Assembly: GCF_020215645.1 (NCBI RefSeq)
Contig: NZ_CP084058.1
Coordinates: forward strand, 10,354,001-10,418,000
Direction of reading: 5' to 3'
DNA: 64,000 nt
Origin: Nonomuraea gerenzanensis
Lineage (GTDB): Bacteria > Actinomycetota > Actinomycetes > Streptosporangiales > Streptosporangiaceae
Position 1 is the first letter of the stretch. Each line of letters opens with the position of its first letter. Made by a program: the position numbers and the translations under genes. The notes beneath the pieces were generated by a model. The model was given only the letters and a program-made list of their open reading frames with translations. It searched no databases and had not been told where the DNA came from. Positions 5,845 to 47,384 of the stretch are shown here, one piece after another.

Positions 5845-5941
5845 GGGGCGGCCGACGGCCCGCCCGGCAACGGGCTGCCGGCCCCGTGAACTTCGGGCGG
5901 CCGACGGCCCGCCCGGCAACGGGCTACCGGCCCGTGAACTT
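5845..5941 (-). repeat. 48/49-bp tandem duplication of the enoyl-CoA hydratase 3' end
   Basis: Two adjacent copies, 5894-5941 and 5845-5893. The first (upstream in the sense of the gene) contains the last codons AAG TTC ACG GGC CGG and the TAG stop plus 3' UTR; the second is almost identical, with an extra G and the stop changed to CAG. Each copy carries a GGCCGACGGCC hairpin core and a CGGGC/GCCCG stem closing a tetraloop. The duplication therefore doubled both the terminal codons and the terminator. Confidence 0.8.
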
Positions 5942-6697
5942 GGGCTTGGCCTTCTCCGCGAACGCCCGCAGCCCGATCTTGGCGTCGTCGGTGGCGAACA
6001 GCCCGGAGAAGTGCAGCCGCTCGATCTCCATCCCGGTGTCCAGATCCGTCTCCAGCCCGTGGTCCACGGCCTGCTTGGCGGCCCGCAGCGCGACCGCGGG
6101 CCCGCCCACGAAGGTGGCGGCCCACTCCAGCGCGGCGGTGTAGACCTGCTCGTCCGGCACTACCCGATCCACCAGCCCGAGCGCCAGCGCCTCGGCGGCG
6201 GCCACGTGCCGGCCGGTGAAGATGAGGTCCTTGGCCCGGGCGGGCCCGATCAGCCGGGGCAGCCGCTGGGTGCCGCCCGCGCCCGGGATGATGCCGAGCA
6301 GGATCTCCGGCTGCCCCAGCTTGGCCGACTCGCCCGCGACCCGGAAGTCCGCGCAGAGCGCCAGCTCGCAGCCGCCGCCCAGGGCGTAGCCGGTGATGGC
6401 GGCGAGGACCGGCTTGCCGATCTTGGCCACCGCGGTGAAGCAAGCCTGGAGTGTCCCGGAGTGGGCGGCCATGTCGGCGTACGACATGTCGGCCATCTCC
6501 TTGATGTCCACGCCGGCGGCGAACACCCGCTCCCCGCCGTACAGGATCACCGCCTGCACCTGCGGATCGGCGTCCACGAGAGCCGCAGCCTCCGCCAGCT
6601 CCTGCTGGACCTGGCCGTTGAGGGCGTTCATCTTCGGCCGGTCGAGACGGATCGTGGCGATCTGGTCGGCCACCTCGACGCTCACAAACTCACCCAT
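5924..6697 (-). CDS. Enoyl-CoA hydratase/isomerase (crotonase family)
   Basis: 257 aa, normal crotonase length. It hydrates trans-2-enoyl-CoA to 3-hydroxyacyl-CoA in beta-oxidation. The oxyanion-hole motif GYALGGGCELA and the downstream PEILLGIIPGAGG are both present, giving the catalytic glutamates Glu111 and Glu131 with the 20-residue spacing of true hydratases (rat Glu144/Glu164). The DNA just past the stop is a tandem copy of the last five codons and 3' UTR. It is followed (in the minus direction) by the convergent 275-aa gene. It resembles short-chain EchA8-type enzymes; chain-length preference is not visible. Confidence 0.93.
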   Translation of the reverse strand: MGEFVSVEVADQIATIRLDRPKMNALNGQVQQELAEAAALVDADPQVQAVILYGGERVFAAGVDIKEMADMSYADMAAHSGTLQACFTAVAKIGKPVLAAITGYALGGGCELALCADFRVAGESAKLGQPEILLGIIPGAGGTQRLPRLIGPARAKDLIFTGRHVAAAEALALGLVDRVVPDEQVYTAALEWAATFVGGPAVALRAAKQAVDHGLETDLDTGMEIERLHFSGLFATDDAKIGLRAFAEKAKPKFTGR

Positions 6698-6718
6698 GTG
6701 ATCGAACCTAACAGGTGC

Positions 6719-7378
6719 TCACCGGCCCGCCGCCGCGGACTTGACGGCGTCCACGGACTTCTTGCTGCGCGAGACCCGCACCAGCGCGGCCGACAGGCGG
6801 GCCAGCTCGTCGCCCGAGTGCGCCAGCTCGGCCAGCGGGCGGGCCTGGCGGGGCAGCCCCAGCTTGCCCGCGCCGTCCAGCACCCGCCGGTCCAGGTGCG
6901 GCGCGACCTGCGGCCAGACGGCCTGGACCTCGCGCAGGAAGATGTCGGCGCCGGTCGGCCCGATGCCGGGGAACTCCATCAGCAGATCCATGAGCCGCCG
7001 CTCGTCGCCGCCCGCCTCGTCGCGCAGGCGGCGCAGGTCGCCCTTCCAGCGGTCCATGATCAGGTCGGCGCCGTCGCCGAGCATCGTGGCGGTGCGCTCG
7101 TCGTAGCGACGGTAGTGGCCGCGGCCCAGCGCGTCCACCCGGTCCTGCCAGCTCGCCTCGCGCATCCCCCTGGGCGTGCCGTACCCGGCCGCGAACAATT
7201 CCTTGGCGGCGGCCACCGCGACCTCCGCCGAGATGCGGGCGCTGAGCAGGGTGGCCAGGACCAGCAACTGGTAGAGCGGTTTGGGCTGGTCCGCCAGCTT
7301 GATGCCGGCCTCGGCCGCGTACGTGCGGCCGTAGCGGTCGAGCAGGGCGTCCAGCACGGCTGCGTCGGTCTTCCCCAT
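6719..7378 (-). CDS. HhH-GPD base-excision-type protein (endonuclease III-like)
   Basis: 219 aa from the ATG at 7378. The helix-hairpin-helix is clear (LLMEFPGIGPTGADIFLREV, about 131-150) with the GIGPTGA turn that contacts DNA, and an Asp-containing segment (PHLDRRVL) follows at the GPD position. The N-terminal helix pair (LYQLLVLATLLSARISAEVA) is typical of Nth-like folds. No C-terminal 4Cys Fe-S loop is seen, so it belongs to the shorter, cluster-less subgroup found in actinomycetes. It probably binds damaged DNA; glycosylase activity is unproven. 21 nt separate it from the enoyl-CoA hydratase gene downstream. Confidence 0.85.
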   Translation of the reverse strand: MGKTDAAVLDALLDRYGRTYAAEAGIKLADQPKPLYQLLVLATLLSARISAEVAVAAAKELFAAGYGTPRGMREASWQDRVDALGRGHYRRYDERTATMLGDGADLIMDRWKGDLRRLRDEAGGDERRLMDLLMEFPGIGPTGADIFLREVQAVWPQVAPHLDRRVLDGAGKLGLPRQARPLAELAHSGDELARLSAALVRVSRSKKSVDAVKSAAAGR

Positions 7379-7480
7379 GCCGCTGCGCCTACCCGGGACC
7401 CGCCGGGGCATGCCGGGCCCGGGTTTGGGCCGGTGGACGAGGGGGAGGCGGAGTTCTTCCACTGAGTGAAGGAGCAGGTC

Positions 7481-7765
7481 GTGCTGACATTGACCGACAA
7501 CGCCGTGGTCGCCATCCGGGACCTCATGGTCGGGGAGGACGTGCCCGCCGACGCGGGCCTGCGCATCTCCCCCAAGGCCGACGAGGCGGGCACGCTGGAG
7601 GTCTCGCTGGCGAGCACTCCACAGGCCGGGGACCAGGTGGTGGAGAAGGAGGACGTGCGCGTGTTCGTCGCCGAGGAAGCGGTGCCGATCCTCGACGACA
7701 AGTCGCTGGACGCCCAGCCGGGCGCGCCGGGGCAGCCGACGTTCCGGCTCGACCGCCGGACCTGA
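7481..7765 (+). CDS. HesB/IscA-like protein lacking the cluster-binding cysteines
   Basis: 94 aa starting at the GTG 7481, chosen because AAGGAG lies 6-7 nt upstream; the longer reading from GTG 7466 would run through that site. The fold signature is the opening LTLTDNAVVAIRDLM, then GLRISPKADE and a C-terminal strand set (KEDVRVFVAEEAVPILDDKS) as in A-type Fe-S carrier proteins. IscA/HesB proteins normally use one internal Cys and a terminal CGC; this protein has no cysteine at all, so it cannot carry a cluster in the usual way. Such cysteine-free HesB-like proteins are annotated as Fe-S biosynthesis proteins in actinomycetes, but the role is unknown. Confidence 0.75.
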   Translation: MLTLTDNAVVAIRDLMVGEDVPADAGLRISPKADEAGTLEVSLASTPQAGDQVVEKEDVRVFVAEEAVPILDDKSLDAQPGAPGQPTFRLDRRT

Positions 7766-7770
7766 CCTCT

Positions 7771-8457
7771 TCAGCCCTGGTCGGAGTCGTTCTCGGGCGG
7801 CCGGGTGTCGCCGAGGCCGAACAGGCCCACCAGCGTCCCGTCCGCCTGGGTGACCACCACGTGGTCCACCTTCGCCTGGTCCATGCGCCGCACCAGCGGG
7901 TCGATCTCCTCGCTCGGGCGTACGGTGGTGGCGCCGACCCGCATCACGCCCTCGGCGGTGCCGTCGAGGTCGGCGCCCTTGAGCTCGCGGGAGCCGATCA
8001 CGCCCTGAACGACGTCGTCCTCGTCCACCACGACGGCCAGGCCCGCCGGGTCGGCGATGATGCGCTCGGTCAGCATGTCCAGCGGGTCGTCCAGGGCGGC
8101 GGTCACCGGGTCTCTTCGCACGTTCCTGGACACCAGGGCGGCGTGGCCGTCGTACGGCAGGTCGGCGGAGAGCCAGTCCATCTTCCCGACCCCGTAGTCG
8201 TACACCTCCTCGAACCCCAGCCGTCCGAGCCGGTGCGCGGCCCGCGGGCTCAGGTCGCAGAGCCAGTCGTGGCAGTAGACGATGACCGGACGCCCCCGTT
8301 CGAGCGGCGGCGCGCCGTCGATGCGGCCGAGCGGCAGGTTGACGGCGCCCGGCAGGTGCGCCCACTGGTACTCGCGTTCGGGCAGCACCTCGACGAGCTG
8401 CGCCTGTCTGGTGGCGAGCAGGTCGTGCACGGCGTCGCGGTCGATGATGTGCGTCAT
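7771..8457 (-). CDS. Rhodanese-CBS pair fusion protein
   Basis: 228 aa. Residues 1 to about 105 form a rhodanese domain with the EYQWAHLPGAVNLPLGRI segment and the active-site loop starting at Cys62 (YCHDWLCDLS), which would carry a persulfide; a second Cys67 closes the loop. Residues about 110-220 form a CBS pair (VRRDPVTAALDDPL... and VMRVGATTVRPSEEID...), a module that senses adenosyl nucleotides. The fusion suggests nucleotide-controlled sulfurtransfer. It converges on the HesB-like gene with 5 nt between the two stops. Cytoplasmic; substrate unknown. Confidence 0.85.
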   Translation of the reverse strand: MTHIIDRDAVHDLLATRQAQLVEVLPEREYQWAHLPGAVNLPLGRIDGAPPLERGRPVIVYCHDWLCDLSPRAAHRLGRLGFEEVYDYGVGKMDWLSADLPYDGHAALVSRNVRRDPVTAALDDPLDMLTERIIADPAGLAVVVDEDDVVQGVIGSRELKGADLDGTAEGVMRVGATTVRPSEEIDPLVRRMDQAKVDHVVVTQADGTLVGLFGLGDTRPPENDSDQG

Positions 8458-8601
8458 GCCCGCCCCGTACCCGGTGATCTGTCTGGGGCACCGCCTGCCT
8501 CGGCAACCGCTGCGGCAACTCGGGCCCGCGGCGGCTCGTCCGGCGGCGCCGGTGGCCGGGTACGTGGTGGTGTCCGACCGCCTGAACGTGCGCGGCCTCG
8601 A

Positions 8602-9042
8602 TCAGCCCTGCTTGACCGCCTGGATGTGCGCGGTCGCGGTCGCCACGGCGACGGGCTCGCCGTCGGGGCCGAGTAACTCACCGGACATGAAGCACACCTG
8701 ACGCCCGCGCCGCACCACCCTGCCCCGCCCCACCAGCCGGCCGGGGCGGGCCGGGCGGAGGAACTGGACGTGCAGGTCGAGCGTCGGCGCGAATCGACCC
8801 GGCGGCAGCGTCGCGACCAGCGCCGGCCCGAGCGTGTCATCGAGCATCGCCGCCAGGAAGCCGCCCTGGACGACACCCACCGGGTTGGTGAAGCGCTCAT
8901 CCGCCGTGAACGCCACCTCGATCGTCCCCTCGTCGGGGTCCACGTGCAGCAGCTCCCAGCCGAGGGTGGTGGCGGCGGGGGGCGGCTGCGCGCGGCCGGC
9001 CAGCACGTCCCAGAACGGGCCTTCGCGGGTGGGTGTCTCCAT
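8602..9042 (-). CDS. PaaI-family hotdog thioesterase
   Basis: 146 aa single hotdog domain. The central helix motif NPVGVVQGGFLAAMLDDTLG (about 64-83) corresponds to the HGG-containing active-site helix of PaaI thioesterases, here with Gln in place of the usual His before GG, and the acidic DD supplies the general base. The beta-sheet half (LDLHVQFLRPARPGRLVGRG) is typical. It would hydrolyse acyl-CoA thioesters, often aromatic or medium chain, in the cytoplasm. It is monocistronic; 144 bp with no recognisable feature separates its stop from the start of the rhodanese gene. Confidence 0.88.
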   Translation of the reverse strand: METPTREGPFWDVLAGRAQPPPAATTLGWELLHVDPDEGTIEVAFTADERFTNPVGVVQGGFLAAMLDDTLGPALVATLPPGRFAPTLDLHVQFLRPARPGRLVGRGRVVRRGRQVCFMSGELLGPDGEPVAVATATAHIQAVKQG

Positions 9043-9116
9043 GGAGCCATTGAACGGGACGGGACCGACAGAAATCCGTGCGGAGAAGGGGCTTTCACAC
9101 CTCGGGTTAGGCTGCT

Positions 9117-9689: not shown

Positions 9690-9924
9690 GGCCGGGCGCC
9701 GTTCGCGTTGCGCCGGACTCCGCCGCACGACGACTCGCCGACCCGGCGCCTGCAAGGCGACGCGTGGTTGCGCCGGCGGTCCCGGTTGTCACGCGGGGCC
9801 GTGCGGTGCCGCCATGGTCACTGGTCCTCGTCGGGTGTGCCGGAGGCGAGGCGCCGCTGCCCGGCGCACCGCCGCCCCCACGCGTCAGGCGAGGACGGCG
9901 GCACGAAGCCGGGCAAGGCAGGGG

Positions 9925-10206
9925 TCAAACGGGCGGCGGGAAGCCCGTCAGGCCATGGGGGATCCCGCGTCGTACGGCCTGGACGATCTCCTGGTGGAGG
10001 CGGGGCCCGGGATCGGTGGCGGGCGCCAGAGGGCTGCCCTCGATCTCGTACCACTCGTCGGCGTCCAGATACTGCACCCGCACAGTCACCCGCTCCCCCA
10101 CCACCACCGTCCGCACCGTCACCTCACCGGTGATGACGCCGACCTCCTCGGTCATCACCCCGCCGGGCCCGGCGACGACGCTGGTCTCGTAGGTTTCGGC
10201 GCTCAC
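9925..10206 (-). CDS. Small cytoplasmic protein coupled to the HNH nuclease gene
   Basis: 93 aa, not recognised. It is rich in beta-strand-like Val/Glu alternation (EEVGVITGEVTVRTVVVGER) followed by DADEWYEIEGSPLA and an amphipathic helix near the C-terminus. No signal peptide. Its ATG overlaps the stop of the upstream secreted nuclease by 4 nt (ATGA at 10206-10203), so the two are translationally coupled. An inhibitor or chaperone of the nuclease is one possibility, an unrelated passenger another. The 235 bp between its stop region and the 9689 stop hold no other feature I can see. Confidence 0.6.
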   Translation of the reverse strand: MSAETYETSVVAGPGGVMTEEVGVITGEVTVRTVVVGERVTVRVQYLDADEWYEIEGSPLAPATDPGPRLHQEIVQAVRRGIPHGLTGFPPPV

Positions 10207-12911: not shown

Positions 12912-13670
12912 ATGCGGATGTCGCAGTGGGCGCACGACACGTTCGGGCAGCGCGTCCCCCTGATCAGACAGGGCATCGCCGAGGCGCTGTCGGTGGCGCT
13001 GGAGAATGCGCTCGACGCGCAGAAGGTGGCGCAGACCGACCATCTGCACCCGTTCGGGTTCACGCTGATGTCGCGCAAGTTCGAGGCGCTCGCCGAGGCC
13101 TTCGAGGACCTGGGTGACGTGCGCGTGGTCAAGCCCGGCGGCTCCCAGCACGAGCTGGTGGTGCTCGACGGCAAGCTGCTGTTCCCCTTCCGCTACGCCA
13201 AGGACCGCTCGATCAGCGTGATGAGCGCGCGCATCGGCGACGGGCGGCCGTCGGCGCTGGTGCAGGCGCTGTTCAACCGGTTCGGGCCCGAGCCCCGGAT
13301 GCGGCAGCTCGCGCTGCACGACATCGCGCCGCACGCCGTCCCGGTCGCCGAGGCGCTGGGCGACCTGCCGGAGGACACCCGGCTGGTGCTGATCGCCTAC
13401 GCCTGCAACGCGCACGCCGGGCTGCTCGACGCCTGGTGGGGCGAGGCGGAGCTGCTCGACCGCACCGGCAGCCTGCGCTGGCACCACTGCGAGGAGATCC
13501 CGCTCGTCCAGGAGAGCGCGGCGCCCGCCCGGCGCGAGGGCGAGGCCGCGGCCTTCGACCAGGGGGTGCTCCCCTCCCCCGCGCTCAACCCGCGCACGGG
13601 CGCCGCCCGGCTCGCGGCGCCCGTCAGCGAGCCGCTCCCGTTCGGGCCAGAAGCCGCCAGCGGTGCATGA
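12912..13670 (+). CDS. Conserved-looking unknown protein, partner of the XRE-ImmA gene
   Basis: 252 aa, family not recognised. Features: N-terminal helical part (FGQRVPLIRQGIAEALSVALENALDAQKVA), a phrase THLHPFGFTLM-like (QTDHLHPFGFTLMSRKFEAL), a strand/loop LPFRYAK-type core (ELVVLDGKLLFPFRYAKD), then VLIAYACNAHAGLLDAWWGEAEL with a Trp-rich patch, and a disordered Pro/Ala C-terminus. No signal peptide. It overlaps the XRE-ImmA gene by 8 nt, so the two are coupled and probably act together. Strand-core residues and the acidic EALAEAFEDLG helix could fit a restriction-like fold, but I cannot see a complete motif. Regulator/effector pairs of this shape occur in stress and toxin-antitoxin-like systems. 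Confidence 0.75.
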   Translation: MRMSQWAHDTFGQRVPLIRQGIAEALSVALENALDAQKVAQTDHLHPFGFTLMSRKFEALAEAFEDLGDVRVVKPGGSQHELVVLDGKLLFPFRYAKDRSISVMSARIGDGRPSALVQALFNRFGPEPRMRQLALHDIAPHAVPVAEALGDLPEDTRLVLIAYACNAHAGLLDAWWGEAELLDRTGSLRWHHCEEIPLVQESAAPARREGEAAAFDQGVLPSPALNPRTGAARLAAPVSEPLPFGPEAASGA

Positions 13671-14844
13671 CTCCGGCACGCGACCGCCGCGTGACGCGGC
13701 CGGGCAGGTCTCCAGGGCGGGCGGGCCGAGCCCGCAGGCGGTCGCCGACGCGTTCGACGCCACCCGCCTCACCCAGGCCCGCCACCTGGCCGCGCTCACC
13801 AAGAAGGAGGTCGCCGAGCACCTCGGCGTCTCCCCCGCCGCGGTCGGCCAGTACGAGTCCGGCGTCACCCGGCCACGCCCCGACCTGATCCCGCGGCTGG
13901 CCGAGGTGCTGTCGGTGCCGATGGCGTTCTTCCTGCCCGGGCGCCCGCACGGCAAGCTCGACGGCTCCATGGCGCACTTCCGCAGCCTCCGCTCCACCCG
14001 CGCCTACCAGCGGGCCAAGGCCGTGGCGTTCGTCGAGCAGGTGTGGGAGCTCACCTACGCGCTGGAGAAGCGCGTGCAGCTGCCCCTCGTCGACCTGCCC
14101 GGGTTCGCGGGCGGCGAGATGCATTCCGACCTGCCGCGCGACCCGGCGGGGGCGGCCCGCGCGCTGCGCGCCCACTGGGGGCTGGGCACCGGCCCGATCA
14201 GCCATCTCGTACGCCGGATGGAGTCGCACGGCATCGTCGTGGCCTTCCCCCGGCACGATCCCGACGCGGTCACCGTCGACGCCTTCTCCACCTCCAGCCT
14301 GCCGCGCCCGATCGTGGTGCTGACGCCCAACCGGTTCGACGACATCTACCGTCACCGGTTCACCGCCGCCCACGAGCTGGGGCACCTGGTGCTGCACGGT
14401 GACACGGCGGCGGGTGACACGCAGCAGGAGCGGGAGGCCGACGCGTTCGCGGCCGAGTTCCTCACGCCGCGTGACAGCATCCTGCCGCAGCTTCCGCTCC
14501 GTGCCGATCTGCGGCGGCTGGCCGAGCTGCGGCAGACGTGGGGGGTGTCGGTCGACTCGCTGCTCTATCGGTGCAGGGAGACGGGGCTGCTGTCCGACTC
14601 CGCCGCCGGGCGGGCCTACCAGCGGCTGGCGGCGCTGCGCGATCAGCCCGGGTTCACCAACGAGCCGGTCTCGGGGTATCCGGGGGAGCAGCCGGTGCTG
14701 CTGGCGGAGGCGTTCGAGCTGGCCGGGCGGGAGAGCGGGCTGAGCGCGGCCACGCTGGCGCAGGAGCTGGCCTGGCCCATCGCACGGGTGCGCGAGCTGA
14801 TCGGGCTGCCGGATCGGCGGCCTTCGCTGAAGCTCGTCCCCTGA
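13663..14844 (+). CDS. XRE-family HTH / ImmA-IrrE metallopeptidase
   Basis: 393 aa from GTG 13663. An HTH_3 domain (about 34-90; ALTKKEVAEHLGVSPAAVGQ) binds DNA, followed by the ImmA/IrrE domain with the zinc motif HELGH (His237, Glu238, His241) and the downstream EREADAFAAEFLTP that provides the third ligand. Such proteins cleave or sequester a partner repressor on a signal, as ImmA does to ImmR and IrrE to DdrO. No integrase or phage gene is near, so this looks chromosomal. It is coupled to the 252-aa gene. Its terminal codons (CTGAAGCTCGTCCCC TGA) are the first unit of a 13-14-bp tandem repeat beyond the stop. Confidence 0.88.
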   Translation: MHDSGTRPPRDAAGQVSRAGGPSPQAVADAFDATRLTQARHLAALTKKEVAEHLGVSPAAVGQYESGVTRPRPDLIPRLAEVLSVPMAFFLPGRPHGKLDGSMAHFRSLRSTRAYQRAKAVAFVEQVWELTYALEKRVQLPLVDLPGFAGGEMHSDLPRDPAGAARALRAHWGLGTGPISHLVRRMESHGIVVAFPRHDPDAVTVDAFSTSSLPRPIVVLTPNRFDDIYRHRFTAAHELGHLVLHGDTAAGDTQQEREADAFAAEFLTPRDSILPQLPLRADLRRLAELRQTWGVSVDSLLYRCRETGLLSDSAAGRAYQRLAALRDQPGFTNEPVSGYPGEQPVLLAEAFELAGRESGLSAATLAQELAWPIARVRELIGLPDRRPSLKLVP

Positions 14845-14900
14845 ACTCGTCCACTGACCTCGTCCACTGAACTCGTCCCACTGAAGCTCGTGCCCTGACC
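14827..14900 (+). repeat. Five-copy 13-14-bp tandem repeat spanning the XRE-ImmA stop codon
   Basis: Units at 14827, 14841, 14854, 14867 and 14881 follow CTGAACTCGTCCA with small changes, then a partial CTGACC. The first unit is the coding sequence for the last residues (LKLV) and the second begins with the codon carrying the stop TGA, so each later copy also displays a TGA. The third unit has an A-to-C change. Confidence 0.85.
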
Positions 14901-14925: not shown

Positions 14926-15564
14926 TCACCGGGGCTCGGCGCGTGGGGTGGCGGTCAGGGTGAGGCTGCCCGGCAGGGCGGCGACGGCTTCGTGGAAGCG
15001 GGCGGCGAGGGCCGGCACGGAGGGGCGCTCGCCCGCCGTGGCGGCCCACCCGCCGACCGCGACCCGCCACGCCGCCACCAGCATGTCGCCCGCCAGCCGC
15101 GTACGCGGATCGTCGGGCAGGTCGAGCCGCCGGTGCAGCACCTCCAGCACCGCCCCCAGGGTGCTCTCGCAGAAGTGCAGGTTGTGGGCGTCCATCGAGG
15201 ACGTCTCACGTGACAGCCGGTGGCTCAGCGCCGCCCGCCCCGCCCACGCCTCGTCGGCCACCCGGTCCAGCGCGGCCAGCAGGGTCGCCTCCATCAGCTC
15301 CATCAGCGGCCGCCCGTCCGCCGGGATGGTCTCCAGCTCCTCCAGGAAGGCCCGCCACATGTCGTGCAGCGGCGCCATCGCGACGTCCTCCTTGCCGCCG
15401 AAGTAGCGGAAGAACGTGCGCTTGGAGACCTCCACCTCCTCGCACAGCTCGTCCAGCGTGACCGCGCCGTAGCCGCGCGTGCCGAACAGGTCGAGTGCGG
15501 TGTCGATCAGGGCCTGTCGGGTGCGCAGCTTCTTGCGCTCGCGCAGCGGCGGGGCGGTGGTCAT
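14926..15564 (-). CDS. TetR-family transcriptional regulator
   Basis: 212 aa. N-terminal Tet[58 protein letters not shown] (about 8-58), with the KRTFFRYF recognition helix. The C-terminal ligand domain has no obvious family. It diverges from the zinc-type dehydrogenase gene (start 15669); the 104-bp gap carries a perfect 13-bp palindrome that may be its operator, so it probably represses itself and that dehydrogenase in response to a small electrophile or xenobiotic. Confidence 0.9.
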
Positions 15565-31037: not shown

Positions 31038-32369
31038 GTGCTTGACGAGCTCCTTGCCGCATGGATCAGCCGCCAACGTTGGTTCGGCGGCAAGGGGCGC
31101 CCGATCGACGAACTGTCGATCGACTCGGACGTCGAGCTGACACCCGGGCTGCGGCACCTGATCGTCGCCGTCTGGCAGGAGGGCTCGCGCGACCGCTACC
31201 AGGTCCTGCTGGGCGAGCGCGACACGCTGCCCGACCGGCTCAACCACGCCCTCATCGGCACCATCGGCGACCGCCACCTCTACGACGCCGTGCACGACTG
31301 CGAGCGCACCCGCTGGCTGCTCGACGGCATGGCCCACGACGAGACCCGCAGCGGCCTGCGCATGCGGCACGTGCCCGGCGTCACCATCGACACCTCCCCG
31401 CGCAGCCTGGTGCTCGGCGCGGAGCAGTCCAACACCTCGCTGGTGTACGGGGACGCCTACATCTGCAAGCTCTTCCGCCGGCTCATCCCCGGCCTGAACC
31501 CCGAGCTGGAGATCATCACCGCCCTGGCCGCCAGGGACGCGCCGCACATCGCGCAGCCGTACGGGTGGATCGAGACCGACCTCGACGGCACCGGCACCAC
31601 GCTCGCGATCATGCAGGAGTTCCTGACGCCGGCCAACGACGGCTGGGACCTCGCCCTGGCCAGCGTGCGCGACCTGTACGCCTCGCTGCCCGAGCTGCCG
31701 GCGGCGGAGGCGGGCGGCGACTTCGCGGCCGAGGCGCTGCGGCTGGGCGCCGCCACCGCCCGCGTGCACCACGAGCTGGCCGCCGCCTTCCCCACGGGGG
31801 TGGTGGAGACCCACGAGATCAAGCGCATGGCCGAGGGCTTCAGGCGGCGGCTCGGCCGGGCCGTGGCCGAGGTGCCCGAGCTGCGCGAGCATGTGAGCGC
31901 CATCGAGGAGGCCTACCACCAGGTGGAACTGCTCACCAACGAGGTGCCTGTGCAACGCGTTCACGGTGACTACCACCTCGGGCAGGTGATGCGCACGCCC
32001 ACGGACTGGATCATCCTCGACTTCGAGGGTGAGCCCGGGCAGCCGCTGGCCGAGCGGCGGGCGCTGTACTCGCCGCTGCGGGACGTGGCGGGCATGCTGC
32101 GCTCGTTCGACTACGCGGCCAGGCACCTGCTGGCCGGCCGTCCCGACACCGACGAGCTGGAGCCCAGGGCCCAGGAGTGGGCCGACCGCAACCGGGCCGC
32201 CTTCCTCGACGGCTACACCGAGGGCGGCGGCGTCATCTCCCCGGCGGACGCGGCGCTGCTGCGGGCCTTCGAGCTGTCGAAGGCGGTCTACGAGGTCGTG
32301 TACGAGGCCCGCAACCGGCCCTCCTGGATCCCGATCCCGCTCGCCGCCTTCCGGCCCCGCTCCACCTGA
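31038..32369 (+). CDS. mak: Maltokinase
   Basis: 443 aa from GTG 31038, with a strong GGAGGAG site inside the end of treS. It phosphorylates maltose at C1 to maltose-1-phosphate, the GlgE donor. The family marks are WISRQRWFGGKGRPI at the N-terminus, the N-lobe YGDAYICKLFRRL with its ATP lysine, the catalytic loop VQRVHGDYHLGQV and the metal-binding DFEGEPGQPLAERR. Aminoglycoside-phosphotransferase fold. Free-standing rather than fused to TreS. Its stop is immediately followed by a 19-bp repeat cluster shared with the convergent gene. Confidence 0.93.
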   Translation: MLDELLAAWISRQRWFGGKGRPIDELSIDSDVELTPGLRHLIVAVWQEGSRDRYQVLLGERDTLPDRLNHALIGTIGDRHLYDAVHDCERTRWLLDGMAHDETRSGLRMRHVPGVTIDTSPRSLVLGAEQSNTSLVYGDAYICKLFRRLIPGLNPELEIITALAARDAPHIAQPYGWIETDLDGTGTTLAIMQEFLTPANDGWDLALASVRDLYASLPELPAAEAGGDFAAEALRLGAATARVHHELAAAFPTGVVETHEIKRMAEGFRRRLGRAVAEVPELREHVSAIEEAYHQVELLTNEVPVQRVHGDYHLGQVMRTPTDWIILDFEGEPGQPLAERRALYSPLRDVAGMLRSFDYAARHLLAGRPDTDELEPRAQEWADRNRAAFLDGYTEGGGVISPADAALLRAFELSKAVYEVVYEARNRPSWIPIPLAAFRPRST

Positions 32370-32374
32370 TCAGG

Positions 32375-32450
32375 CTGGAGCCCCTCGATCCGCCTGGAGC
32401 CCCTCGATCAGCCTGGAGCCCCTCGATCCGCCTAGAGCTCCTCGATCAGC
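32375..32450 (-). repeat. Four-copy 19-bp tandem repeat spanning a stop codon
   Basis: Units at 32375-32393, 32394-32412, 32413-32431 (CTGGAGCCCCTCGATCCGC or AGC) and the diverged 32432-32450. The last, read on the minus strand, encodes the C-terminal LIEEL and the TAG stop of the oxidoreductase gene; the three further copies lie in its 3' UTR with the stop changed to CAG. A partial copy (GATCAG) abuts the mak stop. Confidence 0.85.
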
Positions 32451-33283
32451 CCGGACAGCCCTTCGTGCCCCAGCCCGCGGGCGGTGCGCTGGTCGATGAC
32501 GGCCTTCAGCGGCAGCAGCAGGTCCGGCTTGACCCCCTGCTCGCGGAACGTCCGCACCAGGTTCTCCACGCCCGCCCGGTTGATCTCCAGGTTGGAGACC
32601 TCGGTGCTGTGGTCGCCCGACTCCATCTTCTCGGCCCACAGGGGCTGCTGCGCGGCCATCGCGTTCAGCCACGGCACCAGCAGCGACGGCACGAACTCCG
32701 TGAGCGGGTAACCGGCCGACCTGACCAGCGCGGCGGCCTCCAGCAGGCCGGCGATCTGGCCGTACATGCCGGTCAGCATGGCCAGGTCGAGCAGCGGGGC
32801 CATGCCGGGATCGGCGCCGGTGTAGCGGGCCTCGGCCATGGCGGCCAGCGCCCCTTCGTACCGGTCGAAGGCCGGCTCGGAGCCGCTGTAGAGGATGAGC
32901 GCACCCGGCTTGGCGATCATCTGCGGGACGGCCATGATGCCGCCGTCCACGTACTCGCCGCCGTGGCCCGCCACCCAGGCCGCCAGCTCGCGGGCCTCGG
33001 CGGGGCGGCCGGTGGTCAGGTTGGCGACGACCTTGCCCGCCAGTGGCGTGCCCTCCAGCGTGGCCGTCACGGACGGGTAGTCGAGCAGGCACACGATCAC
33101 CAGCGGGCTCGCCGCCACGGCCTCCCCGGGGGTGGCCGCCTGCTTGGCGCCCTTGGCGAGCAGGGGCTCGGCCTTGGCGGGCGTCCGGTTCCAGACCGTG
33201 ACCTGGTGCCCGGCGGCCAGGAGGCTCTCGGCGAGCGCGGTGCCCATGAGTCCGAGACCGAGCACGGAGATGTTCTCCGACAT
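32432..33283 (-). CDS. NAD(P)-binding 6PGDH/imine-reductase-like oxidoreductase
   Basis: 283 aa from ATG 33283 with AAGGA upstream. Rossmann motif ISVLGLGLMGTALAESLLAAGHQVTVWNRTPAK with Arg/Thr after the second strand, pointing to NADPH. The C-terminal helical domain (PMLDLAML..., KMESGDHSTEVSNLEINRAG) resembles imine reductases and beta-hydroxyacid dehydrogenases used in secondary metabolism. It diverges from the BTAD regulator gene with 90 bp between starts and may be its target. It interrupts the trehalose-glycogen island. Terminal codons are the source unit of the 19-bp repeat. Confidence 0.8.
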   Translation of the reverse strand: MSENISVLGLGLMGTALAESLLAAGHQVTVWNRTPAKAEPLLAKGAKQAATPGEAVAASPLVIVCLLDYPSVTATLEGTPLAGKVVANLTTGRPAEARELAAWVAGHGGEYVDGGIMAVPQMIAKPGALILYSGSEPAFDRYEGALAAMAEARYTGADPGMAPLLDLAMLTGMYGQIAGLLEAAALVRSAGYPLTEFVPSLLVPWLNAMAAQQPLWAEKMESGDHSTEVSNLEINRAGVENLVRTFREQGVKPDLLLPLKAVIDQRTARGLGHEGLSGLIEEL

Positions 33284-33373: not shown

Positions 33374-36300
33374 ATGCGGTACGGGGTGCTGGGCCCGCTC
33401 GCGGTGTGGGCGCCGGACGGGCGGCCGGTCCAGGTGCCCGAGGTCAAGGTCAGGGCGCTGCTGGCCGGGCTGCTGATCCAGGCGGGGCGGACGGTCTCCG
33501 CCGACCGGCTGATCGAGGACCTGTGGGGTGACCGGCCGCCCGCCGACCCCGCGGCTGCCCTGCGGGTGAAGGTGTCCCAGCTGCGGCGGGTGCTGGGCGA
33601 TCGGGAGCTGGTGGCCCACCGGGCGCCGGGGTACGTGCTGCGGGCCGAGCCGGAGTCCGTGGACGCCGGGCGGTTCGAGGCGCTGCTCCTGCGCGCCCGG
33701 CGCACCGGCGAGCCGGAGGCGCGGGCGGCGCTGCTGCGCGAGGCGCTCGGGTTGTGGCGGGGCGGCGCGTACGCCGAGTTCGCCGACGAGCCGTGGGCCA
33801 GAGCGGCGGTGGCGCGGCTGGATGAGCAGCGGCTGGTGGCCGTGGAGGAGCTGGCCGAGACGCGGCTCGGGCTCGGCGAGCACGGGCCGCTCGCCGCCGA
33901 GCTGGCCGACGCGGTGGCCGAGCACCCGCTGCGCGAACGGTTGCGGGCGGCGCACATCCGGGCCCTGTACCGGGCCGGGCGGCAAGGGGAGGCGCTGTCG
34001 AGCTACGCCGACCTGCGGCGGCGGCTGGCCGGTGAGCTGGGGCTGGACCCGGGGCCCGAGCTGGTGGCGCTGCACCAGGCGATCCTGGAGCAGGACCCGG
34101 CCCTGGAGGCACCCGCCGCGCGGCCCGTGACCAACCTGCCGGCCCCGCTGACTGAGCTGGTCGGCCGCGACGAGGCGGTGACCGAGGTGCGCGCGCTGCT
34201 GCGCGCCAACCGGCTGGTCACGCTCACGGGCCCGGGCGGCGTCGGCAAGACCCGCCTCGCCCTGGCCGCCGCCGAAACGGCACCGGACGCGTCCTTCAGC
34301 GGCGGCGGGGTGTGGCTGGTGGAGCTGGCCGCGTTGCCGGCCGGGGCGCGGGTCGTGGAGGTGGCCGAGGCGATCGCGGCCGTGCTGGGCCTGCGGGACG
34401 ACGCGCCGGGCCGCATCATGGACCGCCTGCCCGCCGCCCTGGCGGCCCGGCCCACGCTGCTGGTGCTGGACAACTGCGAGCACGTGGTCGAGCAGGTGGC
34501 CACGCTGACCGCCCGCCTCCTGCGCGCAGCCCCCGGCCTGCGGGTGCTGGCCACCAGCCAGGAGTCGCTGCGGGTCGAGGGCGAGGCCCTGTGGAGCGTG
34601 CCGCCGCTGACGCGGGAGGCGGCGGTGGCGCTGTTCGCCGCGCGGGCCGGGATCGAGCCCGACGACGACGTGGCGGAGATCTGCGAGCGGCTGGACGGCC
34701 TCCCCCTGGCCCTGGAGCTGGCCGCCACGCGGATGCGCACGCTGACCCCCAGGCAGCTCGCCGACCGCCTGGACGACCGCTTCCGGCTGCTCGCCTCCGG
34801 CCTGCGCGGCGCGCCCGCCCGGCAGCGCACGCTGCGCGCGATGATCGACTGGAGCTGGGAGCTGCTGACGGACGGCGAGCGGGTGGTGCTGCGGCGCCTG
34901 GCCGTGCACGCCGACGGCTGCACGCTGGAGGCGGCCGAGGACGTCTGCGCCGAGCCCGGCCTGGACGTGCTCGACCTGCTGGCCCGCCTGGTGGACCGCT
35001 CCCTGGTGGTGCGGGCGGCGGGGCCCAGGTTCCGGTTGCTGGAGTCGGTGGCCGCGTACTGCCAGGAGCGGCTGCGGGAGGCGGGCGAGCTGGACGAGGT
35101 GCGGCTCAGGCACCTGCGCCACTACGCCGCCCTCGCCGAACGCCTGGAGCCGGAGCTGCGCGGGCCGGGCCAGCGTCACGCGCTCGCCCGGCTCGACGCC
35201 GAGGCCGCCGACCTGAGGACGGCCCTGGACACGGCGGTACGCACCAAGTCGGCGGGCCAGGCGCTGACCCTGGTGAACAACCTGGCCTGGTACTGGGTGC
35301 TGCGCGGCAGGCTGGGCGAGGCCCGCCGCGCCCTGGAGTCGGCCCTGTCCGTGGCGGCACCGTCCGTGGCGGCACCGTCCGTGGCGGCCCAGTCCGTGGC
35401 GGCACAGTCCGTGGCGGCACCGTCCGTGGCGGCACAGTCCGTGGCGGCACAGTCCGTGGCGGCACAGTCCGTGGCGACACAGTCCGTGGCGGCACAGTCC
35501 GTGGCGGCACAGTCCGTGGCGGCACAGTCCGTGGCGGCACAGTCCGTGGCGGCACAGGACGATCCGGCCACCGCGCGGGCGCGGGTGTGGCGGGCCGGGT
35601 TCGAAATGCTGGCGGGTCACCTCGTCCCGCTGGACACCACGCTGTTCGAGCGCGTGGAGGACCCGCTGGCGCGGGCCCGGGCGCGGTGGTTCGCCGCGTT
35701 CGCCCTGTTCGGCTACGAGGACCTGTCGGCGAGCGGCGAGCTGGCGGAGACGGCGCTGGCGGAGTTCCGGCGGCTCGGCGACGACTGGGGCACGGCCGCC
35801 GCGCTCATCCTGCTGGGCCGGCACGCCGCCATGCGCGGCGACCTGGCGGCGCTGCGGGACAGCGCGGAGCGGGGGCTGGCCCTGTTCAGGAAGGCCGGCG
35901 ACCGGTGGGGCGAGCTGCGCGCGACGGAGAGCCTCGGCACGCTGGCCGAGATCACCGGCGACTACGGCCGGGCCACCGAGCTGCGCCTGGAGGTGCTGGC
36001 CATGGCCGAGGAGCTGGGGCTGTGGAGCTCGGTGTCCGATGCGCTGTCGCGGCTGGGCCGGATCGCCCTGCTGACGGGCGACCACGTACGGGCCGACGAC
36101 TTCCACGAGCGGGCCAGGCGGCTGGCGGCGGCGCAGTCGAACCGCCCGGCCGAGGAGTTCGCCGAGCTGGGCCTGGCGCTGAGCGCGCGCCGGCAGGGCC
36201 GGCTGGACGAGGCTGAGCGGCGGTTGCGGGCCTGGCTGGGCTGGGTCGAGGACGTGGCGGGCGACCCGGGCGCGGCGCTGATCCTGGCCGAGCTGGGGTT

Positions 36301-42651: not shown

Positions 42652-42660
42652 TCACCTCGC

Positions 42661-42779: not shown

Positions 42780-42806
42780 CAACCCCCCGAACCCCCGGAG
42801 GAGCAG

Positions 42807-44162: not shown

Positions 44163-44182
44163 GCCGCCCGCCCGAGGCACGC

Positions 44183-44503
44183 TCAGACACCCGCCGCGAT
44201 CTTCAGCAGGACGACCCCGCCGATGATCGCGGCGAACGAGCCCAGCTTGGCGGGGGTGATCTTCTCCTTGTAGATGAGCGCGCCGAGCACGACCGTGCCG
44301 ATGGAGCCGACGCCCGTCCAGATGGTGTAGCCGACGCCGACGTCCAGGGTCCTGAGCGCGAGGCTGAGGGTGAAGATGCCGCCGGCGGCCGACAGCAGGG
44401 TGAAGACCGACGGCCAGAGCCGGGTGAAGCCCTTGGTGGCGTTGGTGCCGAGGGCGAAGCCGATCTCGAAGACGATCGCGATCGAGAGATACATCCAGGC
44501 CAT
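44183..44503 (-). CDS. SMR-family transporter, second subunit of a pair (SugE/Gdx-like)
   Basis: 106 aa, four membrane helices. Conserved proton/substrate glutamate Glu13 (IVFEIGFALGTNAT) and the WTGVGSIGTVVLG motif, which resembles the guanidinium exporter (Gdx/SugE) subtype rather than the EmrE form. Inner-membrane proton antiporter. It is 18 nt downstream of a second SMR gene, a paired arrangement known to give heterodimers (for example YkkCD). Convergent to protease 3, 20 bp away. Confidence 0.88.
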   Translation of the reverse strand: MAWMYLSIAIVFEIGFALGTNATKGFTRLWPSVFTLLSAAGGIFTLSLALRTLDVGVGYTIWTGVGSIGTVVLGALIYKEKITPAKLGSFAAIIGGVVLLKIAAGV

Positions 44504-44521
44504 GATGACGTTTCCTCAGGG

Positions 44522-44869
44522 TCAGACGGTGGCGGAGGGACGGGTCGAGGGCAGGCGGTCGGCGAGCTTGAGCCCGAGCACACCGCCGATGATCAGGACG
44601 AAGGCCAGCGCCTTCCAGATGGTGATCTCCTCGTCGAAGATCACGGAGCCGAGCACGACGGTGCCGACCGAGCCGATGCCGGTCCACACCGTGTAGCCCA
44701 CGCCGACGTCCAGCGTCTTCAGCGCGAGGCTCAGGAAGAAGATCCCGCCGGCCGCCGCGCCGGCGGTGAGCAGGGACGGCCACAACTGGGTGAAGCCCTC
44801 GGTGGCATTGGTGGCCAGCGCGAAGACGACTTCGAACACGGCGGCGATGAGCAGATAGATCCAGGCCAT
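44522..44869 (-). CDS. SMR-family transporter, first subunit of the pair
   Basis: 115 aa from ATG 44869, with GAGGAG upstream; the longer open frame to 45004 crosses the MarR operator region and is not coding. Glu13 (AVFEVVFALATNAT) and WTGIGSVGTVVLG are present, and the C-terminal tail extends ten residues past the partner. The two proteins are similar through the whole length, consistent with local duplication. Divergent from the marR gene across operator-like palindromes. Confidence 0.88.
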   Translation of the reverse strand: MAWIYLLIAAVFEVVFALATNATEGFTQLWPSLLTAGAAAGGIFFLSLALKTLDVGVGYTVWTGIGSVGTVVLGSVIFDEEITIWKALAFVLIIGGVLGLKLADRLPSTRPSATV

Positions 44870-44891
44870 CGGCGACTCACTCCTCAGGAAT

Positions 44892-44942
44892 TTGCATGTA
44901 CTTGCAAGTAGTTGGTGAGCAAGAGAATGTATGTACATGTAT
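44892..44942. promoter_or_regulatory. Two GTAC-centred palindromes, putative MarR operators
   Basis: TTGCATGTACTTGCAA (44892-44907) and ATGTATGTACATGTAT (44927-44942) each have dyad symmetry about GTAC, centres 35 bp apart, in the AT-rich gap between the SMR pair and marR. Confidence 0.65.
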
Positions 44943-44988
44943 CTTCTTGTCAAGCGGGTTCTCGTGATCGACCCTTGGAGGGCAGCCC

Positions 44989-45450
44989 ATGACCGCCGCA
45001 CCACCTGTCCCCGGCCTCACCTCGACGTGGCACCACGTCCTGCTCCTGCACGCCCGGGTGGAGGGCAGGCTGGGCACCGCGCTCCAGCGCCGGCACGGCA
45101 TCGGCCTGTCGGAGTACCGCGCGCTCGGCCACCTGGCCGCCTCCTCCACCGGCGAGCTGCGCATGCAGGAGCTGGCCGACAAGCTCGGGCTGAACCAGAG
45201 CTCGGTGACCCGGCTGGTGGCGCGGCTCAACGCGGCGGAGTTCACCTACCGGGACCTGTGCCCGGACGACAAGCGCGGCGTCTACACGGTCATCACCGAG
45301 ACCGGCCGCGCCCGGCACGCCGAGGCCGGCCACACCTACGAGGAGACGCTGCGGAGCGCGCTGGAGGAGGCGGGGCAGGCGGACCCGGCGCTCGCCGCGG
45401 CGGTCACGGCCCTGGGCGGCAGGCTGGCGGGCTCACCCGCGACCGGATGA
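44989..45450 (+). CDS. MarR-family regulator
   Basis: 153 aa winged-helix protein: helix set (HARVEGRLGTALQRRHGIGLSEYRALGHLA), HTH (MQELADKLGLNQSSVTRLVARLNAAE) and beta-wing (CPDDKRGVYTVITETGR, with Asp-Lys-Arg). It likely represses itself and the SMR pair and is relieved by the exported cation or another ligand. The operator-like palindromes are within 47-97 bp upstream of its start. The histidine kinase gene starts 24 bp downstream. Confidence 0.9.
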   Translation: MTAAPPVPGLTSTWHHVLLLHARVEGRLGTALQRRHGIGLSEYRALGHLAASSTGELRMQELADKLGLNQSSVTRLVARLNAAEFTYRDLCPDDKRGVYTVITETGRARHAEAGHTYEETLRSALEEAGQADPALAAAVTALGGRLAGSPATG

Positions 45451-45474
45451 GGCCCGCTCTCGTACCATGATGGC

Positions 45475-46623
45475 GTGCAGGGCCTCCTCCGCTCGTGGTG
45501 GGACGAGCCCCGTCCGCCCCAGGCGCCGCGCCGGGTGTGGCGTGACTGGGCGCTCGTCGGCCTGTTCGTCGTGGCCGCCGTGCTGGAGGGCATGCTGCGC
45601 ACCGACCTCCAGTGGCGGCCCATCTCGGTGATCTTCCCCATCGTGACGGTGCCCACGCTGTTATGGCGCCGCGCCCGGCCGCTGCTCGCGCTGGCGGTCC
45701 CCGTCGTGGTCTCGACGCTGGTGCAGCTCCTCACGGGCGCCGACCCGGCCGAGACGACCTCCTCGGCCTACATCGTGATCCTGCTGTACGCGTTGTCCCG
45801 CTGGGGTTCGGGCCGGGAGATCGCCGCGGGGCTGCTGCTGATCACCGTCGCCGTGCTGGCCTCCGTGGTGACCGGGCACATCAGGGCGGCCGACGTCGGC
45901 GGCGCGTACGCCGTCGTGTTCGCGGGGGTCGCGCTGGGCGGCACCTTCCGCTACCGGGCCAGGGCCAGGCTGCGCGAGCTGGACCAGGTCAAGCTGCTCG
46001 AACGCGAGCAACTGGCCCGCGACCTGCACGACACCGTCGCCCATCACGTCTCGGCGATGGCGATCAGGGCCCAGGCGGGCATCGCCACCGCCGCCTCCGA
46101 CCCGGGCGCCGCCGTGGACGCGTTGCGGGTGATCGAGGCGGAGGCGTCCCGCACGCTCGCCGAGATGCGCACCATGGTGCGGGTCCTGCGCCGCGACCGC
46201 GGGCTTGCGACGCCGGAGCTGGCGCCCAGCCCGCACCTCACCGACCTCCGGCAGCTCGCCGGACGGGCGCGCGTCGGTCCCGCCGTGGACGTGCGGCTCG
46301 ACGGGAACCTCGACGGCGTGCCCGCCTCCGTCGGCGCCGCGATCTACCGGATCGCCCAGGAGTCGGTCACCAACGCCAGGCGGCACGCCCGGCACGCCAC
46401 CCGGATCGAGGTCAGCGTGGCCGCCGACGACACCTCCGTGCGCCTGCGCGTGAGCGACGACGGCGACAGCACCGCCGGCCGCCCCGTCACCGTCCCCGGG
46501 TACGGGCTGCTCGGCATGATCGAGCGCGCCGGCCTGCTCGGCGGCACCTGCGAAGCCGGTCCCAACCCCGGTCGCGGCTGGACCGTGACCGCCGTACTGC
46601 CCCGGACGGGAGCCTCCCCATGA
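45475..46623 (+). CDS. NarL-type sensor histidine kinase (DesK-like)
   Basis: 382 aa from GTG 45475. Four to five membrane helices (28-160), then HisKA_3 with the phosphoacceptor His185 (RDLHDTVAHHVSAM) and an HATPase domain (IAQESVTNARRHARHAT, SDDGDSTAG..., GYGLLGMIERAGLLGG). It autophosphorylates and passes phosphate to the next gene's product, with which it overlaps by 4 nt (ATGA). A TTA codon is at residue 63. The signal sensed is unknown. Confidence 0.92.
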   Translation: MQGLLRSWWDEPRPPQAPRRVWRDWALVGLFVVAAVLEGMLRTDLQWRPISVIFPIVTVPTLLWRRARPLLALAVPVVVSTLVQLLTGADPAETTSSAYIVILLYALSRWGSGREIAAGLLLITVAVLASVVTGHIRAADVGGAYAVVFAGVALGGTFRYRARARLRELDQVKLLEREQLARDLHDTVAHHVSAMAIRAQAGIATAASDPGAAVDALRVIEAEASRTLAEMRTMVRVLRRDRGLATPELAPSPHLTDLRQLAGRARVGPAVDVRLDGNLDGVPASVGAAIYRIAQESVTNARRHARHATRIEVSVAADDTSVRLRVSDDGDSTAGRPVTVPGYGLLGMIERAGLLGGTCEAGPNPGRGWTVTAVLPRTGASP

Positions 46624-47330
46624 CCACAGCGCCGGCTGAGCACCCGGACCCGGGCGGCCCCGCTCGCGGCGGAGCCATCCAGGTGCTCGTCGCCGACGAC
46701 CAGGAGATCGCCCGTACCGGCCTGCGGATGATCCTGGACGCCCAGCCCGGCATCGAGGTCGTCGGCGAGGCGGCCGACGGGCACCGCGCCGTCGAGCTGG
46801 CCCGGCGGCTGCGGCCGGACGTGTGCCTGTTCGACATCCGCATGCCGCACCGCGACGGCATCGAGGCCACCCGCCTGCTGGCCGGGCCCGACGTGGCCGA
46901 CCCGATGGCCGTGGTCGTCATCACCACCTTCGACCTCGACGAGTACGTCTACGCGGCGCTCAGGGCGGGCGCCCGCGGGTTCCTGCTCAAGGACGCGGGC
47001 CCCGAGCTGCTGGCCCAGGCGGTCCGCGCCGCGGCGGGCGGCGACGCGCTCATCGCCCCGAGCATCACCGCCCGCCTGCTGTCCGCCTTCGCCGGCACCG
47101 GCCCCGCCCAGCCCCGCGTCCAGCCGATCGAGCCGCTCACCGAGCGGGAGGAGGAGATCCTGGTCACCGTGGCGCGCGGGCGCACCAACAGCGAGATCGC
47201 CGCCGAGCTGCACATCTCGCTGAGCACGGTCAAGAGCCACGTCGCGAGCCTGATGACCAAGCTCGGCGTGCGCAACAGGGTCGAGATCGCCATGTGGGCG
47301 TACGAGACGAACCGCGTCAAGCAGCACTGA
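46620..47330 (+). CDS. NarL/LuxR-type response regulator
   Basis: 236 aa. Receiver domain with Asp26-Asp27, phosphoacceptor Asp72 (CLFDIRMPHRDG) and Lys of LLKDAG, then LuxR HTH (LTEREEEILVTVARGRTNSEIAAELHISLSTVKSHVASLMTKLG). Partner of the upstream kinase. The last codons AAG CAG CAC TGA are the head of a 13-bp tandem repeat. Confidence 0.93.
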   Translation: MTTAPAEHPDPGGPARGGAIQVLVADDQEIARTGLRMILDAQPGIEVVGEAADGHRAVELARRLRPDVCLFDIRMPHRDGIEATRLLAGPDVADPMAVVVITTFDLDEYVYAALRAGARGFLLKDAGPELLAQAVRAAAGGDALIAPSITARLLSAFAGTGPAQPRVQPIEPLTEREEEILVTVARGRTNSEIAAELHISLSTVKSHVASLMTKLGVRNRVEIAMWAYETNRVKQH

Positions 47331-47384
47331 CGGCAGCACTGACGGGCAGCACTGACAGGCAGCACTGACAGGCAGCGCTGGCCG
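47321..47384 (+). repeat. Five-copy 12-13-bp tandem repeat spanning the response regulator stop
   Basis: GCAGCACTGACGG-type units at 47321, 47333, 47346, 47359 and a diverged one at 47372-47384. The first unit carries the last residues (QH) and TGA stop; three further copies keep the TGA. Confidence 0.85.

Follow-up and report, generated by a model that had tools for sequence, protein, structure and literature searches.

Short tandem duplications across stop codons, and the probable separation of convergent genes, in Nonomuraea

Bacterial minisatellites (VNTR loci) consist of short head-to-tail units that are specific for their locus and vary in copy number between genomes. Mycobacterial interspersed repetitive units form one related family which is spread through the genome, and their tandem units lie at gene borders and touch stop codons. 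The arrays analysed here, which came to attention in a window of 64 kb from Nonomuraea gerenzanensis (the whole stretch of DNA that was initially inspected), share with minisatellites the short head-to-tail units, the locus specificity and the between-genome copy number. They differ in that a defined subset contains the stop of the gene, with an effect on how far apart gene ends lie. With the mycobacterial repeats they share a position at gene borders in contact with stop codons, but here the units are unrelated between loci. For 34 of the 39 units with a period of 12 nt or more there is no second place in the 1.264 Mb sample described below, while five have one or two, and a mobile or interspersed repeat of the mycobacterial type is not supported on this ground.

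The second point of comparison is the turnover of tail-to-tail overlaps. Passages in two papers describe that movement of stop codons makes and removes overlaps between convergent genes (PMC4161906, PMC2174442). The text available from the first of these (2014) states that published studies had treated the creation of overlaps and not their loss, and refers to the appearance of a new stop further upstream; neither "duplication" nor "tandem repeat" occurs as a term in this paper. Compared with the routes in that part of its text, tandem duplication across stops adds another concrete way in which overlaps can be lost. Among the titles and abstract beginnings retrieved from the open-licence PMC literature, none dealt with a general pattern of repeats spanning stop codons in bacteria, nor with the loss of overlaps through tandem duplication. 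Such duplication is a simple route, open to counting, for convergent genes to lose their overlap and for intergenic DNA to form with both proteins unchanged. It also calls for caution, as a special mechanism is not required to explain repeats at gene ends: in unit-sized gaps, a tolerated duplication must contain a stop.

All four arrays of the original prediction, said to repeat the last codons and stop of a gene into the 3′ UTR, were located at their claimed places by sequence and TRF (Table 1), and in each of them the first unit is the end of the coding sequence plus the stop. All four sit between convergent genes, a setting that had not been pointed out before. In the response-regulator pair the end of the DUF2306 gene carries a second copy of the once-shared stop segment (lag 80). 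In the loci compared (17 congener loci for the hydratase, 12 for the XRE gene and 16 each for the reductase and the regulator), the congener proteins end at the same residue or at most 4 codons away. Short repeats are in general prone to mis-assembly, and an assembly or sequencing artefact was considered for this reason. However, the copies within each of the four arrays have diverged from one another, and separate genomes carry stop-spanning arrays of their own, with other units and sometimes in the same gaps, so that an artefact is extremely improbable.

Table 1. Stop-spanning arrays of the window and the genes that flank them.
Feature	Position	Strand	Remarks
Hydratase array	5846..5945	-	Stop-spanning duplication; 49-nt period, 2.1 copies (sequence and TRF); TAG stop at 5924-5926, copied triplet CAG at 5875-5877
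Enoyl-CoA hydratase/isomerase gene	5924..6697	-	ECH_1 (Pfam)
Convergent partner of hydratase gene	4947..5792	+	Without Pfam match
XRE-ImmA array	14827..14898	+	13-14-nt units; TRF period 13, 5.3 copies; spans TGA stop at 14842-14844
XRE-ImmA type gene	13663..14844	+	HTH_3 and Peptidase_M78
Convergent partner of XRE-ImmA gene	14926..15564	-	TetR-family regulator
Reductase array	32368..32455	-	19-nt period, 4.6 copies (TRF); spans TAG stop at 32432-32434 and extends to TGA of convergent gene
Reductase gene	32432..33283	-	NAD_binding_2 / RedAm-like_C
Convergent partner of reductase gene	31038..32369	+	Maltokinase N-cap family
Response-regulator array	47321..47380	+	13-nt period, 4.7 copies (TRF); spans TGA stop at 47328-47330
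Response-regulator gene	46620..47330	+	Response_reg and GerE (LuxR-type); start placed later, at 46683, by the gene caller of this analysis
Convergent partner of response-regulator gene	47397..48047	-	DUF2306 membrane protein

The frequency of such arrays was determined in a sample of 1.264 Mb from the 12-Mb Nonomuraea genome (G000), with gene ends taken from our own codon-usage gene caller instead of the annotation and checked against the list of open reading frames within the window. At the 832 stops of this sample, 41 tandem arrays span the stop, while only 5 arrays span just a start. When stop regions are analysed (score of at least 50), 46 stop-spanning arrays are obtained, and ten dinucleotide shuffles of the same regions yield 0 to 2 arrays with a mean of 0.6. 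Head-to-tail copies at stops are far above the shuffled expectation, and the arrays are short tandem duplications. The view that the four arrays reflect something systematic and not chance is thereby borne out as a genome-wide pattern. Their density was taken as the sign of it, and this is ordinary: four arrays in 64 kb are not unusual here because the remaining 1.2 Mb of the sample holds 37 (Poisson probability of at least four in 64 kb, 0.14).

We consider it likely that slippage-type tandem duplications, filtered by selection, survive at stops and there separate convergent genes which touch or overlap. Units, mostly of about 10-50 nt, would arise by homology-assisted slippage or template switching, and copies would be gained and lost after the first duplication. 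Such events probably occur everywhere, with selection acting as a filter. Inside coding sequences almost only periods divisible by 3 would survive, duplications that strike a start would be depleted, and duplications containing a stop could persist, as translation would still terminate in the first copy and leave the protein unchanged. Neither gene has its promoter or ribosome-binding site in a convergent gap, and such gaps are often unit-sized, so that tolerated duplications there should mostly include a stop. Overlapping or touching convergent ends would be pulled apart, each gene being left with its own copy of the shared end. We infer slippage as the molecular event and the neutrality of the duplications; the filter itself is directly visible in the counts. 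Of 292 coding arrays (G000, score of at least 50), 273 have a period that is a multiple of 3, start-spanning arrays are depleted in the clade (8 observed, 23.5 expected), and stop-spanning arrays are without in-frame bias, with period remainders 0, 1 and 2 in 18, 21 and 26 cases. Intergenic arrays overall lean to multiples of 3 as well (73 of 143 in G000), which suggests that some of them lie in missed genes and that the counts of arrays inside gaps are too high.

Slippage had been named from the outset as one of three candidates, beside an RNA-mediated process and selection for 3′-end structure, and is supported by extra junction homology in two-copy arrays. At least 4 nt of it occur in 8 of 20 stop-spanning arrays of the clade, in 6 of 19 purely intergenic clade arrays and in 9 of 27 intergenic arrays elsewhere, at a chance level of about 2% as estimated from the match probability. 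Junction homology is thus alike at stops and elsewhere. The remaining 12 of the 20 stop-spanning arrays have at most 1 nt, which may reflect divergence or another origin.

Placement within gaps depends on gene orientation. In convergent gaps below 100 nt, with arrays collapsed, the stop is spanned by 30 of 42 arrays, and the process is not mainly stop-directed because random placement already gives 28.2. Same-direction gaps below 250 nt contain 27 stop-spanning arrays against 14.7 expected (1.8-fold). The original prediction had made its case dependent on stop-spanning repeats being denser than intergenic repeats in general; they are not in short convergent gaps, the setting of all four window arrays, while they are in the same-direction gaps. 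The latter excess persists when the 80 nt before the next start are left out (25 against 13.3, 1.8-1.9-fold) and is unexplained by the filter. If multiples of 3 are omitted, the clade counts are 23 arrays with 20.0 expected (convergent gaps below 100 nt) and 19 arrays with 8.6 expected (same-direction gaps below 250 nt). A cruder null over all gaps gives a 1.75-fold excess in G000 and 42 observed against 23.0 in the other groups; upon restriction to short gaps, the excess is gone for convergent pairs but kept for same-direction pairs.

The relatives provide the history of the gaps. The four arrays of the window are absent from most of them, and the pairs overlap or abut in relatives, most clearly the response-regulator pair: its two genes overlap in 21 of the 22 congeners and have 66 nt between them in N. 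gerenzanensis. For the reductase pair, 8 of 17 congeners show an overlap of 4-10 nt, against a spacing of 62 nt in N. gerenzanensis, and the hydratase, XRE and reductase pairs are touching or overlapping in some relatives; for these three we infer the direction of change. The gap of the hydratase pair is 131 nt in N. gerenzanensis, 5 in G004, 145 in G015 and 217 in G024. Arrays are not the only way apart because wide gaps that lack a stop-spanning array occur in some relatives (145 and 217 nt for the hydratase pair, 75 and 122 nt for the reductase pair). Array copy number differs between close genomes (between species, with one genome per species): the XRE unit occurs in about 5 copies in G000, in 2 copies of a 14-nt version in G015 and once in G004 and G024.

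Ancestral gaps were also predicted by comparing the two gap ends in G000 alone. For the response-regulator pair, the only one of the four window pairs that reaches a score of 12, the inferred ancestral gap is -14, and G004 and G024 have -14. For pair L149 the prediction is 9; the coordinates in G004 put the gap at about 7-9, where one segment of 77 nt is matched by two stretches of the query, and in G024 about 80 nt lie between the genes, almost the spacing of G000. The predicted gap of -4 for pair L173 is absent from eight relatives (2, 4, 4, 11, 15, 26, 36 and 50), and test pair L157 was left out, its two genes not being neighbours in the relatives with both ends found. Duplicated gap ends were detected in 8 of 143 clade gaps, with 1.0 expected. 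As arrays do move apart genes with ends that overlap or touch in relatives, duplications might have been fixed by selection for the separation of overlapping convergent genes. We regard this as quite unlikely: such selection is not needed because the counts in short convergent gaps fit random placement, and 38 of the 192 convergent pairs of the sample still overlap.

The age of the arrays bears on a further alternative: in addition to slippage in general, this Nonomuraea lineage would recently have had an active duplication process tied to the 3′ ends of genes, arising for instance from the termination of transcription or from its conflict with replication. Recent arrays (match of at least 95%) are at stops in 18 of 35 cases in the clade and in 3 of 27 in the other groups (p=0.001), which corresponds to 18 per 1095 and 3 per 1340 stops (p=0.0002). 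In the class of 90-94% identity, obtained by subtraction, the values are 18 of 32 and 6 of 34, while older arrays (below 90%) are alike (24 at stops and 72 inside gaps in the clade, 33 and 93 in the other groups). The same-direction excess fits such a process, as does the coverage by first units, whose maximum coincides with the stop in the clade and elsewhere falls at about +10 to +40. However, 14 of the 18 recent clade arrays at stops come from one genome, and the identity split was chosen after the data had been seen. Outside the main counts, a further 100 kb of G024 has no stop-spanning array and two inside gaps, and small loci of other congeners have two and five. In the group of G024, G004 and G015, 9 of 20 loci had been picked for synteny with the window, and loci L182-L261 all lie around one gene. 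Short convergent gaps are without clear excess, and given enough room the breakpoints are not tied to the stop. The high-identity arrays had hinted at anchoring directly after the stop, with 14 of 17 units ending no more than 7 nt from it, but in gaps with room the unit reaches as far after the stop as before it (n=34, p=0.91). We therefore consider a recently active 3′-end-linked process unlikely. The combined reading, by which stop duplication is a general route that separates tail-to-tail genes and gives birth to intergenic DNA but has recently been faster at 3′ ends in this lineage, pointing to a 3′-end-linked source, is likewise unlikely.

The excess of recent arrays at stops in the N. 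gerenzanensis clade and the same-direction excess both speak against a uniform filter. A detectability bias, with one conserved copy keeping old arrays visible, was rejected as the excess is found in high-identity arrays and not in old ones.

The arrays might also be selected for themselves, as backup stop codons or as RNA structure at the 3′ end, and TGA is indeed kept in 30 of the 41 alignable first copies in the clade. For backup stops an excess of periods divisible by 3 is missing (as judged by array period), and stop usage in arrays equals the background (TGA in 47 of 62 against 745 of 1033, p=0.66). Selection for 3′-end structure had been among the original proposals and is not supported by folding, as stops with arrays are less structured, not more: the mean fold z is -0.21 for 66 such stops and -0.87 for 198 array-free stops drawn at random (p=0.04), and structure beyond that of array-free ends was not found in this comparison. 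Selection for the arrays themselves is very improbable.

The proposed rule that a copied TAG becomes CAG while TGA is kept is not borne out in the clade sample. Among TAG stops of the clade, 5 of 12 alignable first copies keep TAG and 3 have CAG, two of these three being in the window; first copies could not be aligned for 3 of 15 TAG and 6 of 47 TGA stops. At the reductase, the copies may keep an ancestral CAG, and the stop may have been gained in the first copy, because sister species G024 has CAG where N. gerenzanensis has TAG; this is not certain because G010 and another congener have TAG at that site. In the other groups TAG is copied as CAG in 2 of 2 cases, and TGA is kept in 15 of 27 alignable copies.

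The stop-spanning arrays, i.e. tandem repeats that contain the stop codon of a gene and run past its end, were present in the window as described in the original prediction, as seen both by TRF and by reading of the sequence, and each of the four sits between two convergent genes.

Tandem repeats of the window and the genes to which they belong (products of the four stop-spanning cases according to Pfam)
Array	Position	Strand	Repeat	Gene product
Hydratase	5846-5945	-	stop-spanning	enoyl-CoA hydratase
XRE	14827-14898	+	stop-spanning	HTH plus Peptidase_M78
Reductase	32368-32455	-	stop-spanning	NAD-binding reductase, reductive-aminase-like C-terminal domain
Response regulator	47321-47380	+	stop-spanning	LuxR-type response regulator
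SVAAQ	35347-35557	+	15-nt unit, about 14 in-frame copies, mostly SVAAQ	1094-aa protein with BTAD domain, transcriptional regulator by family

The window is part of a genome of 12.07 Mb (G000), the closest relatives of which, among those with a name, belong to Nonomuraea; it was sampled by 60 stretches of 20 kb across the chromosome, adding up to 1.264 Mb with the window; genes were taken from a codon-usage caller and arrays from TRF (score at least 50, period at least 9). This sample contains 143 intergenic arrays. A stop is spanned by 41 of them (one also covers a start), only a start by 5, and 97 are contained within a gap, including 19 between divergent genes. Counted by region instead of by locus, there are 46 stop-spanning arrays, compared with an average of 0.6 when the 832 stop regions were shuffled ten times, which bears out the claim of a systematic pattern beyond chance. 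The pattern is real and genome-wide. By proportion, the complete genome would carry about 390 stop-spanning arrays, and the four in the window are unexceptional at the rate of the other 1.2 Mb (Poisson P 0.14). The period is divisible by 3 in 73 of the 143 "intergenic" arrays, which suggests that some gaps hide unrecognised or mis-started genes.

Measured against the general density of intergenic repeats, the excess stood in part. Over all gaps of G000, 41 stop-spanning arrays compare with 23.4 expected. Relative to the positions available, arrays are sparser in long gaps; gaps between convergent genes are short, with a median of 28.5 nt, and 38 of 192 such pairs overlap. The null model was refined by counting every array as a single unit, and was applied to the clade formed by G000 and its relatives G024, G004 and G015. 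In convergent gaps below 100 nt there is no clear excess (30 of 42 arrays span a stop, 28.2 expected from random placement); below 50 nt, 22 of 23 arrays have a stop inside. In same-direction gaps below 250 nt the excess persists (27 observed, 14.7 expected), also when the 80 nt ahead of the next start are omitted (25 versus 13.3). The comparison genomes of other groups show 9 versus 14.4 in convergent and 22 versus 16.3 in same-direction gaps.

Ordinary tandem duplication, viewed through a filter that preserves proteins, best explains these data, which demand no new molecular process. Duplications would fall anywhere, and the survivors would be those altering neither protein nor start; where the duplicated segment includes the stop, translation would end at the stop of the first copy. 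Within genes, the period is divisible by 3 in 273 of 292 arrays, and arrays spanning a start are depleted in the clade (8 versus 23.5 expected) and in other groups (9 versus 25.0). Stop-spanning arrays show neither a frame bias of their periods (18/21/26) nor a preference for a stop codon, and in roomy gaps their units lie in equal share before and after the stop. This is the pattern expected from such a filter acting on randomly placed duplications. The SVAAQ repeat of the window exemplifies the coding tandem repeats that can pass the frame filter.

A process linked to 3′ ends may nevertheless exist beyond ordinary duplication. With start-spanning and divergent arrays excluded, 18 of 35 recent arrays (match at least 95%) span a stop in the clade versus 3 of 27 in other groups, a split into recent and old that was chosen after inspection of the data; old arrays show no such difference. 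G000 contributes 14 of the 18. An additional 100 kb of G024 yielded no stop-spanning array but 2 within gaps; in small loci from other congeners the corresponding counts were 2 and 5. Either the sampling was uneven, or duplications may recently have arisen in this lineage from a source linked to 3′ ends.

Junctions were compared in two-copy arrays (match at least 90%, period at least 12). In the clade, homology of at least 4 nt occurs in 8 of the 20 arrays that span a stop and in 6 of the 19 that are purely intergenic; in other groups it occurs in 9 of 27 intergenic arrays. The estimated chance level is about 2%, although the TRF score threshold may slightly favour longer matches; the remaining arrays lack such homology. 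The shared signature argues for one process behind both classes, which, judged from the sequences, would be slippage or template switching at short homologies. Units are locus-specific, 34 of 39 having no match elsewhere in the sample.

As a consequence of stop-spanning duplication, touching or overlapping gene ends can separate. At the loci compared, the conserved end of the gene forms the first unit, while the nearest species lack the additional copies, the sole related array being a similar but shorter one behind the XRE gene of G015. Different arrays occupy the XRE gap and the gap at 7766-7770 in both G024 and G015, and the gap at 52577 in G015. Gap sizes refer to loci at which the ends of both genes were located. 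Ancestral overlap is clear for the response-regulator pair, which overlaps in 21 of 22 congeners (in 12 of these by 11 nt): the overlap is 14 nt in G004 and G024, while there are gaps of 11 nt in G015 and 66 nt in G000. A segment that is single in G004 and G024 is found at both gap ends in G000, so that each gene owns a copy of the once-shared end. For the reductase pair, overlapping in 8 of 17 congeners with the other nine gaps ranging from 7 to 122 nt (62 in G000), ancestral overlap is likely. Its copies read CAG, as does G024 at the position of the G000 TAG, so that the first copy may, on this sequence comparison, have gained its stop; the partner's end is also altered, and the case is thus not a pure copy of ancestral ends. 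Either overlap or separation may be ancestral for the hydratase pair (5 nt in G004, 30 to 62 at five loci, 145 in G015, 217 in G024, 131 in G000) and for the XRE pair (-104, i.e. overlapping, in the further genome G028, 10 in G004, 50 in G015, 109 in G024, 81 in G000).

A further test uses no relatives: a gap born by duplication would have left and right ends that match in direct orientation, with both stops within the match. An end-match score of at least 12 is reached by 8 of 143 clade gaps of 20-400 nt and by 3 of 144 gaps in other groups, versus 1.0 in each case for random end pairing; among the four window pairs, only the response regulator attains it. Its ancestral gap as predicted from the end match, -14, equals the gap of G004 and G024. 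At sampled locus L149 a gap of 9 is predicted; it is about 7-9 by the G004 coordinates, but in G024 the ends are about 80 nt apart. For L173 the predicted -4 was missed: eight relatives have 2 to 50, the lowest being 2, 4 and 4 (three nearly touching), as derived from match lengths with the whole difference assigned to the gap.

Beside the enoyl-CoA hydratase gene in another species (L030, genome G008), the end of a different gene including its TGA apparently recurs in units of about 17 nt, as judged by eye, which looks like a separate stop-spanning array. Convergent gaps of G010 (L282-L301) are poorer in intergenic arrays than those of G000 (0.67 versus 2.02 per kb), so array density varies within the genus.
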